Assembly (NCBI GenBank): GCA_016781485.1
Contig: JADDQH010000006.1
Span: 1-60,875 of the forward strand
From: Chloroflexota bacterium
GTDB taxonomy: Bacteria; Chloroflexota; Limnocylindria; Limnocylindrales; CSP1-4
Direction: 5' to 3'
DNA: 60,875 bases
Shown: positions 57,524 to 60,520 of the stretch, one piece after another
How the letters are laid out: the number at the start of each line of letters is the position of its first letter
Numbering within the stretch: position 1 is the first letter of the stretch
Position numbers and translations under genes: made by a program
The notes under the pieces: generated by a model
Databases searched by the model: none
Seen by the model: only the letters and a program-made list of their open reading frames with translations
Told to the model about the DNA's origin: nothing

Positions 57524-57535
57524 CGCCTGATATTG

Positions 57536-57988
57536 ATGGGTCTTCGCGAGGTCCTTCGCCTCGCCGCAGCACGCCGTGGAGCCGTCCGGGTGGTGCTGGT
57601 GCTGGCGATCGCGGTCCCACTGATCGTGACGCTGTGGCCGCTTCCCGGTTCGGGCGCGCTGCGCCTCAACCTCGTCCCGTTCGCCACGCTCGCGGCGTAC
57701 CTCGCCTCGCCTGACGACGGGATCGGCGAGCTGGTGAACGTTCCCGTGAACGTCCTGCTGTTCGTCCCACTCGCGTTCTTCGCGCCGCTTGCGAGCGCCT
57801 CCCTGCGACGGTGGTGGAAGGTGGCACTGCTCGGCCTCGCCCTCTCGTTCGCGATCGAGGCGGCGCAGTTCCTGTTCGTACCCGGGCGCACCGCGGACAC
57901 GACCGATCTGATCCTCAACACGGTCGGGGCGGTCATCGGGTACGCGACGGTAGCCGCGCTCGGACCTTGGACGCGAGCAGGGTCATGA
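57536..57988 (+). CDS. VanZ-like family membrane protein
   Basis: Four membrane helices and the VanZ pattern: NLVPF after TM1, NVPVNVLLFVPLAFF, the helix ending FAIEAAQFLFVPGRTADTTDLILNTVGAVIGY (Asp/Asn-rich turn). VanZ confers teicoplanin resistance in enterococci; most relatives have unknown roles in the envelope. ATG 57536 is used (TTG 57533 also possible). GTG 57590 has a GGAG 8 nt upstream and would start right at TM1, leaving space for a promoter; the true start may be there. The hydrolase gene follows after 24 nt, so the two may be co-transcribed. Confidence 0.85.
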   Translation: MGLREVLRLAAARRGAVRVVLVLAIAVPLIVTLWPLPGSGALRLNLVPFATLAAYLASPDDGIGELVNVPVNVLLFVPLAFFAPLASASLRRWWKVALLGLALSFAIEAAQFLFVPGRTADTTDLILNTVGAVIGYATVAALGPWTRAGS

Positions 57989-58012: not shown

Positions 58013-60520
58013 GTGGCGAAGCTCGTCACCGGGGGGAGCGACGAGTGGAGGCGGCAGGTGCACGAAGGATCCCCGAAGACCTTCGAGGGAAGGTACTTCG
58101 GGAAGGGCCTCGAGGAGGCGCTGCGGCGCGCCCAGGCCGACTCCGCGTTCCTTGCGGCGCGCGGCCTTGAGGCCGTCGCTCAGGTCTGGGACGAACAGCG
58201 CGGACTCCTGACGGTCCGCTACGAGGGGTCCCCGACTCCCGTCTCCCCTCCCGCCGCCTGGGAGCCCCCCGCCTTGCAGCCAGGCGCCACGGGGCATCCC
58301 GTCTCCCCTCCTCCGCCGGCGACCGCTCGAGAGCCGATCACCTCTCCGCCTCCACCTGTCGGTGCGCAGACGCGGAAACCGCTCCGACTGCTCGGCGCGC
58401 TCACCGCCGCCGGCACCGTCGTCGCGGCGCTCGTCCTCGCCTTCGGGCTCGACGCTCTCGCGCCCCGTCCGCACCTCGCTCCGCGGGAACCCACCGGCGC
58501 TGCGGAAGGCGGCAGGGACTCGCGCGGAGCGGCCGGCGCCGCGTCCTCGAAAGCGGTTCCCGTCGAGTGCCGGTTCGAGGTGCCGATCGGCGTCGTCGCG
58601 GAATGCGGGGACCTGATCGTGCCGGAGGACCGACGACGCCCGGAGGGACGGCTGATCCGGCTGCACTACGCCGTCTTCCCGAGCGAGGCCGAGACGCCCG
58701 CGCCAGACCCCGTCGTCTACCTCCACGGAGGGCCGGGCGGCGGAGCGTTGGAACAGGTGGCGTGGGAGCTCGACGCCTATCCCTTCCTCGCCGATCGGGA
58801 CCTGATCGTGTTCGATCAGCGTGGAAGCGGCTTCTCCACGCCATCCCTCGATTGCCCCGAGATCACGGAGGCCGAGACGGAGTTGCTCGACGAGGATCGA
58901 GACGTGGGCTGGACGACGTGGGCCAACGCGCTCGAGGGCTGCCGGGACCGACTGCGCGACGAGGGTATCGACCTCGACGCGTACGACACGGACGCGAGCG
59001 CAGCCGACGTGGAGGACCTCCGTCGGGCACTGGGGATCGAGCGGTGGAACCTGTACGGGATCTCGTATGGGACAAGGCTCGCGCTCACGGTGATGCGCGA
59101 TCACCCGGAAGCGGTCCGGAGCGTGATCCTGGATTCCGTCGCCCTCCCGCAGGCGGACCTCCTCGCGGACCTGGCGCGGAACGCGCAGGGGGCGTTCAAC
59201 CGCTTCTTCACGGCCTGTCGGCGCGACTCGGACTGTGACCGTGACTTCCCGGAGCTCAAGGCGACGTTCACGGAGGCGATCTCGCGCCTGGACGAGGAGA
59301 CACCGGATGTCGAGGTGCTGGATCCCGACGGCGCGCGACACGACGCGAACATCTACGGGGAGGACCTCGTCGGCTTCCTGTTCCACCGGCTGTATGAGAC
59401 GGCGTCGATCCCGCGGCTTCCCGGCGCGATCGCCCAGATCGACGACGGGGAGCACCAGCTCCTCGCGGCCTTCCTCGCCGAGCAACTCGAGTACGGGTCG
59501 GGGCGTCCGACGGACAGACCGAGCTGGATCAGTGAAGGAGTCTGGCTCTCCGTCACCTGCGCTGAGGAGGCGCCGTTCACGAATGAGTTCGCGATCGCCG
59601 ACGCCGGGATCGGCGTCCCTGGGCCGATCTACGACTATTTCGACGAGCCGATCCTCGACATCTGCGACCTGTGGGGGGTCGAGCGGGCCGCTGACGACAT
59701 GAACGAGGCCACCCGAAGCGAGCTCCCTTCGCTGCTGCTCGCCGGTGAGTTCGATCCGATCACACCGCCGGAGTGGACGATGACGGCAGCAAAGACGCTG
59801 CCGAGATCGCACGCCTTCCTGTTCCCCGGGGTCGGCCACGGCGTCCTTCCTTCCACCTCGTGCGCACACCGCGTTGCTCGTACCTTCCTGGCGGCCCCCG
59901 AAGGCGAGCGACCAGACGCCTCCTGCACCGGCGCGGCGGCCGGCGTTCGCTTCCTCCCGCGTGACCTGGTGATGCGAGACGACTTCTCCGAGCCGCTGAG
60001 CGGGTGGGGCAAGTACGAGGAACCGGGCCTGCGCGCCGGCTATCGCGACGGCGCGTACCGCGCCGAGGTCACCACGATCGACTACCCCTGGTACGGGTTC
60101 CCCTATCCCCCGGTGGTCGAGTCGAACGCGCGCGTGGAGGTCGACGTGACGTGGGTGAAGGCGCAGGCTGGGCACGTGGGCGTCGTCTGTGGCTGGAAGG
60201 AGCCGTTCGACCACTTCGTCCTCGCGATCGGAAGCGATGGCCGGTACAAGGTCGAGAGGTGGAAGGACGACGTCGTGAAGAAGATCGACGCCGGCCGCGC
60301 ACCGCGACAGCGATCGGGGGACAGGTGGAGGATGTCGGCGGTATGCGAGACGCCGGCAGAGGGTCCGGGGCGAGCCCGGCTGTGGCTCGACGGCACGCTC
60401 GTCGCGGACGTCGACATCGACGCCGGCTGGGGTCCAGGCGAAGTCGGATTGATCCTGGAGGCCGGCGGCCAGGGATCGGTGGACGTCCTGCTCGACGACT
60501 TCGTCGTCCGGCGCCGCTGA
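58013..60520 (+). CDS. Membrane-anchored S33-type alpha/beta hydrolase with a C-terminal beta-sandwich domain
   Basis: 835 residues in four parts. (1) N-terminal ~72 residues (WRRQVHEGSPKTFEGRYFG ... VAQVWDEQRGLLTVRYEG), unrecognised. (2) Pro-rich linker and one membrane helix (~125-148). (3) An alpha/beta hydrolase of the tripeptidyl aminopeptidase/TAP-like S33 group: oxyanion HGGPGGG (238-244), nucleophile Ser351 (GISYGTR), Asp581 (GEFDPITPP) and His609 (GVGHGVL). (4) Residues ~653-835, a beta-rich domain (DDFSEPLSGWGKYE ... VDVLLDDFVVRR) like laminin-G/DUF1080-type sandwiches. The topology suggests the catalytic part is outside the cell. Substrate unknown. GTG 58013. Confidence 0.85.
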   Translation: MAKLVTGGSDEWRRQVHEGSPKTFEGRYFGKGLEEALRRAQADSAFLAARGLEAVAQVWDEQRGLLTVRYEGSPTPVSPPAAWEPPALQPGATGHPVSPPPPATAREPITSPPPPVGAQTRKPLRLLGALTAAGTVVAALVLAFGLDALAPRPHLAPREPTGAAEGGRDSRGAAGAASSKAVPVECRFEVPIGVVAECGDLIVPEDRRRPEGRLIRLHYAVFPSEAETPAPDPVVYLHGGPGGGALEQVAWELDAYPFLADRDLIVFDQRGSGFSTPSLDCPEITEAETELLDEDRDVGWTTWANALEGCRDRLRDEGIDLDAYDTDASAADVEDLRRALGIERWNLYGISYGTRLALTVMRDHPEAVRSVILDSVALPQADLLADLARNAQGAFNRFFTACRRDSDCDRDFPELKATFTEAISRLDEETPDVEVLDPDGARHDANIYGEDLVGFLFHRLYETASIPRLPGAIAQIDDGEHQLLAAFLAEQLEYGSGRPTDRPSWISEGVWLSVTCAEEAPFTNEFAIADAGIGVPGPIYDYFDEPILDICDLWGVERAADDMNEATRSELPSLLLAGEFDPITPPEWTMTAAKTLPRSHAFLFPGVGHGVLPSTSCAHRVARTFLAAPEGERPDASCTGAAAGVRFLPRDLVMRDDFSEPLSGWGKYEEPGLRAGYRDGAYRAEVTTIDYPWYGFPYPPVVESNARVEVDVTWVKAQAGHVGVVCGWKEPFDHFVLAIGSDGRYKVERWKDDVVKKIDAGRAPRQRSGDRWRMSAVCETPAEGPGRARLWLDGTLVADVDIDAGWGPGEVGLILEAGGQGSVDVLLDDFVVRRR

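Follow-up and report, generated by a model that had tools for sequence, protein, structure and literature searches.

The window, i.e. the whole stretch of 60,875 nucleotides that was analysed, is one complete contig (G000:C59) from an uncultured Chloroflexota bacterium, whose genome has a completeness of 87.6% and a contamination of 2.8%. Close to its end, one uninterrupted open reading frame on the forward strand runs from a GTG start to a TGA stop and encodes 835 amino acids, as listed in Table 1; the end of the gene is 355 bases from the end of the contig. A TGA at 57986-57988, which is also the stop of the neighbouring VanZ-like gene, precedes the opening of the frame. A second GTG at 58058 (residue 16) is another good start with a GGAGG six bases before it, and all domains are intact from there. 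Codon use was trained on two neighbouring genes, and the frame of the 835-codon gene was compared with the five others. Its own frame scored best in the N-terminal domain (0.27 versus 0.12 for the best other frame), in the S33 part (0.30 versus 0.09) and in the C-terminal part (0.31 versus 0.02). Codon use did not favour the own frame in the Pro-rich linker (-0.39 versus -0.03) and in the helix and stalk (0.07 versus 0.10), which are both of odd composition. The 835-codon gene with its four-part layout was confirmed as real, and the order proposed by the sequence-only reading (N-terminal domain, membrane helix, S33 hydrolase, C-terminal domain) is the order found.

Table 1. Features of the hydrolase gene and its upstream neighbour (positions in the window).
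Feature	Positions	Strand	Basis or remark
Whole gene, 835 codons and stop	58013..60520	+	Alternative start GTG 58058
N-terminal beta-alpha-beta-beta domain, probably cytosolic, residues 22-72	58076..58228	+	Model, orthologs, profile
Pro-rich linker, predicted disordered, 18 Pro in residues 73-125	58229..58378	+	Sequence, model
Single membrane helix, residues 126-144, N-in by the positive-inside rule	58388..58444	+	Sequence; weak helix 127-139 in model
Ala/Gly/Pro-rich stalk, residues 150-185	58460..58567	+	Sequence, model
S33 (TAP/Hip1-like) alpha/beta hydrolase core with internal cap, residues 186-650	58568..59962	+	Pfam, PDB, fold
Nucleophile Ser351 (GISYGT)	59063..59065	+	Aligned with GYSYGT of Hip1 chains
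Asp581 (DPITPP)	59753..59755	+	Aligned with DPATP of Hip1
His609 (GVGHG)	59837..59839	+	Aligned with GTQH of Hip1
C-terminal concanavalin/CBM66-like module, residues 651-835	59963..60517	+	Profiles; all-beta in model
VanZ-like gene, neighbour, 24 bases upstream	57533..57988	+	Pfam VanZ 4.1e-22

The VanZ-like gene lies on the same strand as the hydrolase gene and may be co-transcribed with it in the window. The idea that the two form a unit was not upheld elsewhere. In a single-sequence search of 253 loci, many with flanks of about 1.5 kb, no VanZ counterpart was found near the other copies, and the best match outside the window locus had an E value of 0.13. The region 36445-57523 contains ordinary housekeeping genes by Pfam, including triosephosphate isomerase, CofD, a RapZ-like protein, RecJ, SecD/SecF, UvrC, a UvrD-type helicase, a VTT-domain protein and pyruvate kinase; a frame of 1014 amino acids among them reads as UvrA by eye.

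The central part of the protein matched Pfam Abhydrolase_1 (2.3e-24, 86.8 bits at a cut-off of 25.8) and Abhydrolase_4/TAP (2.5e-14, 53.7 bits at a cut-off of 21). Among the phmmer matches in the PDB were 5bkm, named 'Carboxylesterase A' (2.3e-21), and Hip1 7sfm (2.4e-21). In the model, residues 181-650 formed an alpha/beta hydrolase with pLDDT mostly above 90 and one block at 66. Foldseek matched this model to Hip1 (9.5e-20, TMt 0.73), and in the VIA fold comparison Hip1 5ugq scored Z 29.0 with 425 aligned at 3.4 Å. TnmK1 (8e19) tied with it at the same Z, and both TnmK1 and TnmK2 were among the closest folds. Ser351, Asp581 and His609 were invariant in 43 of 43 rows of alignment A7, in which 42 others, selected out of 80 usable rows, stand beside the window row; the title of PDB entry 9md8 names Ser228 of Hip1. 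The S33/TAP assignment is supported alike by Pfam, the PDB sequence search and the fold comparison, and by sequence and model the core is an S33 hydrolase of the Hip1/tripeptidyl-aminopeptidase-type fold with an intact triad. The match to Hip1 5ugq spans model residues 181-639, so the cap is internal to the core, and the C-terminal 185 residues do not form a known S33 lid.

One hydrophobic segment was found at residues 123-151, with its peak at 126-144 (Kyte-Doolittle 2.26) and the basic stretch RKPLR directly before it. Ten cysteines of the core were kept in 41 to 43 of the 43 alignment rows, a conservation that fits an exported core in oxidising surroundings beyond the cytosol. With basic residues ahead of the helix and a cysteine-rich core behind it, a cytosolic side for the N-terminal domain is likely, as had been suggested, and the hydrolase is probably on the outside.

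Residues 22-72 were predicted to fold as beta-alpha-beta-beta, with block pLDDT of 80-92 in the full-length model and 81-90 when modelled alone. No Pfam family covers this domain, and the PDB and fold searches gave no clear match: the best Foldseek E value was 0.095, and in a comparison with Dodecin and YdgH-like folds dodecin scored Z 4.6, within the common range. In the ortholog L077 this domain also comes first, ahead of a Pro-rich linker and one transmembrane helix, and L078 begins with a diverged form of it; in L003 only the linker and helix are present. Since the domain precedes linker, helix and hydrolase in L077 and L078, it is part of this gene and not of another one.

At E 0.01, a three-row profile of the N-terminal domain (window, L002 and L073) had matches in 20 of the family's 107 genomes, among them the three from which its rows came. 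In a separate search with the domain, most matches (E 0.05 to 0.8) were dropped as Arg- or Gly-rich frames that looked non-coding by eye; L175, one of the profile matches, does not resemble the domain. Of the 20 loci read, most fit the pattern Y.G...EA...DA...GY.P.SQ.W...LTV.Y, and 14 of the 20 contain, by eye, a hydrophobic hairpin before the last strand. The loci of the wider family are L073/L157 and L160-L178, and a SHOCT domain was matched in 3 of its 13 aligned rows. Against the profile of the wider family the window domain scored 1.5e-5 with the ortholog L002 included and 0.001 without it (Z 100000). L073, which was kept by its motif, scored 4.1e-9 against the family profile without the window and L002. 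We hold with moderate confidence that the N-terminal domain is related, by its sequence, to a domain of small Chloroflexota membrane proteins, some of them with SHOCT. SHOCT-like domains were proposed as anchors of domains to the inner membrane face in PMC11237479; for the present family the association is only a hint toward inner-face anchoring.

Residues 661-835 were all-beta in the model at low confidence (pLDDT 26-76), because no row other than that of the window covers this part of the alignment. Against Pfam, the C-terminal module of the window matched 0 families at E values up to 10. A single-sequence search of its own genome found L043 (2.7e-4) and L044 (0.57), and in 61 genomes such a search gave matches in only two at 0.01. 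A profile that included both own-genome rows reached L046 in another genome (5.4e-14), and a four-row profile matched 82 of 400 sampled Chloroflexota genomes at 1e-4. The profiles used to collect the family contained the window; once the window had been taken out of the family profile, its module still scored 2.9e-31 against it (Z 100000). Against an 81-row profile lacking the window, L043, L044 and L046, whose rows had been gathered with the four-row profile, the scores were 3.2e-30 for the window, 1.8e-31 for L043, 1.7e-14 for L044, and 5.4e-12 and 8.1e-22 for the two copies of L046 (Z 100000). The identity of the window module to its relatives was 16-29%. L043 (G000:C72) and L044 (G000:C125) are, by eye, proteins with lipoprotein-like starts.

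The 86-row profile of the family matched the levanase-named PDB entries 4b1l, 4azz and 4b1m at 2.2e-13 to 3.2e-13, which we take to be the CBM66 of SacC. The next entries were 4jqt (9.6e-4) and 3imm (3.3e-3), both named glycosyl hydrolases. Matches of this profile to VDAC (E 0.02) and of the four-row profile to PDB 8k20 (E 0.0093, an alignment to a kinase) were taken as chance. At E 0.01, 3keto-disac_hyd (PF06439) was matched in 26 of the 86 members and Laminin_G_3 in 9. A search of viral contigs with a close subset of the module found no relative. By these profile matches the module is a sandwich of the concanavalin/CBM66 kind, which agrees with the lectin-like domain outside the S33 fold that had been read from the sequence. 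Elsewhere the sandwich is attached to kinases, trypsin-like proteases and lipoproteins; of 48 longer module proteins, 8 had a kinase domain by Pfam at 0.001, 7 a DnaJ, 4 a trypsin-like and 1 a TIR domain. The kinase-like Chloroflexota protein L190 carries, by eye, the same kind of sandwich after a membrane segment.

Among the loci read, the window gene was the only one with S33 and the sandwich in one frame. The module was present in 80 open frames (78 distinct, some being copies of one place), and S33 was found in only the two that are the window gene; these frames came from loci that included 40 stretches picked mostly for long frames, and the rest of the profile matches, some of them long-frame, lay outside the set. 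The whole protein was matched at 1e-20 in 10 of the 107 family genomes, and the loci from those 10 contained no frame with both domains except that of the window. In the genome contigs, a single-protein search found no relative, whereas alignment A1 as the query gave 285 relatives; the analysis used the 80 best of these. A narrow literature search of open-licence papers gave no title on this architecture.

The window protein is 46% identical to L077 (Chloroflexi bacterium MGR_bin285), 43% to L078 (Chloroflexota bacterium YX2bin14) and 45% to L003 (G026). L002, from genome G010 of the same family, is the same protein as L077. L077 and L078 share the N-terminal domain, linker, transmembrane helix and S33 core with it and lack a C-terminal module, and L003 lacks both the module and the N-terminal domain. 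In a quick tree of 84 rows, made without bootstrap and of moderate support, the window grouped with L077 (SH-aLRT 85), then with L003 and L078 (85) and then with L031 (91), which was flagged as a long branch; none of these four carries the sandwich. The simplest reading of the tree would be that the sandwich was gained once in the lineage of the window. On the sequences compared, a small ortholog clade shares the anchor, and the sandwich is an addition seen in this genome only. L031 (G000:C106:35268-36767) is a second S33 protein of the same genome, with 46% identity; by eye it starts like a lipoprotein, and its tail weakly resembles PsbP (0.0034, below the Pfam cut-off).

S33 hydrolases had been expected to end after the catalytic domain. 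This does not hold in the branch studied, where 47 of the 84 tree rows, window included, carry a C-terminal module and 37 have no tail. Tails of at least 80 residues were counted in complete frames of at least 280 bits, with the more distant proteins L004, L007, L023 and L027 added, giving 50 in all. One unrelated family of about 145 residues accounts for 42 of them; the others are the window sandwich, a GSDH domain (L004), three members of one further family (L007, L023 and L027), two multi-helix tails (L131 and L139) and the tail of L031. The ~145-residue tail occurs in 42 of the 84 rows, from Chloroflexota and Actinomycetota (for example L085:6564-6992; tails of L081-L156). It has no clear Pfam family, the best being DUF6281 (0.01), DUF4245 (0.034) and PsbP (0.081). 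Armadillo-repeat profile matches to it, down to 1.4e-8, were dismissed, as no stretch matched on its own. In L004 (G036:C3:124737-126116 and the frame beyond) a single open frame encodes both S33 and a domain of the glucose/sorbosone dehydrogenase type (Pfam GSDH 7.5e-37), and L134 and L137 show, by eye, two repeat copies of the type 'FWEQNGG...VFGLP' before the S33 core. A tail was present in 38 of the 51 rows classed as anchored and in 6 of the 29 classed as secreted (Fisher p 4.9e-6; the classes were assigned by eye and from patterns, and 4 of the 84 rows were left out). On starred branches the tree offers no more than 2 independent pairs, and nothing is claimed about a link between anchoring and tails. 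Hip1-type hydrolases of Chloroflexota and some Actinomycetota are modular, with one core and several interchangeable tails at the same junction. Such module swapping is useful, if not startling to a specialist, and three domain families without a clear Pfam entry (the N-terminal domain, the ~145-residue tail and most of the sandwich family) could be named.

On balance, we lean towards a single-pass membrane enzyme, a surface-tethered exo-peptidase or esterase whose tail would keep it close to a glycan. The cytosolic part would consist of the small beta-alpha-beta-beta domain and the flexible Pro-rich linker, one helix would cross the membrane, and the stalk would hold the Hip1/TAP-type serine hydrolase outside, where it would most likely trim peptides or hydrolyse small esters at the cell surface. 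The sandwich, joined directly to the end of the hydrolase, may hold it against a glycan of the envelope, a biofilm or a food particle. The parts, their order, the intact triad and the family links on which this account is built were read from the sequence and the model. The account that the sequence-only reading had given is partly supported, because two parts of its reasoning fail: tails are common in the relatives, and no VanZ counterpart was found near them in the loci searched. Against the account we favour stands that the whole combination comes from a single contig of one incomplete genome, close to the contig end. The position near the contig end and the occurrence of the fusion in one genome would also suit an assembly or binning artefact, which we consider very improbable, since the frame is single and uninterrupted with like codon use on both sides of the junction, the module starts directly behind the last conserved part of the S33 core, the point at which relatives end or continue into other tails, and the same genome has two further copies of the module on other proteins, L043 and L044, both recovered by a profile free of own-genome rows.

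The function of either half could differ from the one we favour. The C-terminal module may be a structural or protein-binding cap and not a glycan binder, the enzyme then being just an anchored hydrolase; this is possible, and we give it real but lesser weight. A concanavalin-like sandwich can also simply bind a protein or stabilise its host. The different tails of the relatives at the same junction (the ~145-residue family, multi-helix, GSDH and weakly PsbP-like) suggest a generic accessory role, and a sugar ligand is not obvious for sandwiches on kinase, DnaJ, trypsin-like or TIR proteins. However, among solved structures the profile comes closest to levanase modules and entries of the glycosyl-hydrolase type. 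The CBM66 of the B. subtilis exo-levanase binds levan, according to PMC8715580. The polymer binding proposed by the sequence-only reading stays putative, and a glycan would be the candidate ligand. In a similar way, the hydrolase could tentatively be seen as an esterase, lactonase or tailoring enzyme in place of a peptidase, a choice that seems to us somewhat doubtful. Fold and family do not settle the reaction, since Hip1 and TnmK1 score equally. According to PMC11878206, S33 contains other enzymes besides peptidases, and genuine peptidases, with the tripeptidyl-peptidases and Hip1 as one of their three clusters, are a minority of S33-type sequences. On the other side, Hip1/TAP is the closest group by sequence, and Glu518 and Glu519, both in the cap region, were kept in 41 and 40 of the 43 rows, respectively. 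By analogy with prolyl aminopeptidases, these glutamates could hold the amino end of a peptide. We infer a peptidase rather than an esterase. A role of the N-terminal domain beyond anchoring or oligomerisation would enter with a transmembrane sensor-enzyme, in which the helix would relay glycan binding by the outer sandwich, or turnover by the hydrolase, to the cytosolic side. There the N-terminal domain would act in signalling or assembly, as one of a Chloroflexota domain type that has no name yet and in other proteins can be accompanied by SHOCT. We regard such a sensor as unlikely.

Compared with known systems, the surface-tethered hydrolase proposed here is a new arrangement of known or recurring kinds of parts. 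With Hip1 (Rv2224c) and the tripeptidyl-peptidases of MEROPS S33 (Pfam Abhydrolase_1 and Abhydrolase_4), the window protein shares the core fold, the internal cap and the triad positions. Hip1 is 22-23% identical to the window core, and its solved chains, of 463-473 residues, are covered by the core alone, whereas the window protein has an added membrane helix, N-terminal domain and C-terminal module. The levanase module (4azz, 4b1l and 4b1m) and PF06439 are matched by the profile of the C-module family, whereas the module of the window itself has no direct Pfam match. The small Chloroflexota membrane proteins share the motif of the N-terminal domain with the window protein, but 14 of the 20 loci read have, by eye, a hairpin inside the domain and 3 of 13 aligned rows a SHOCT domain, and the window protein has neither.
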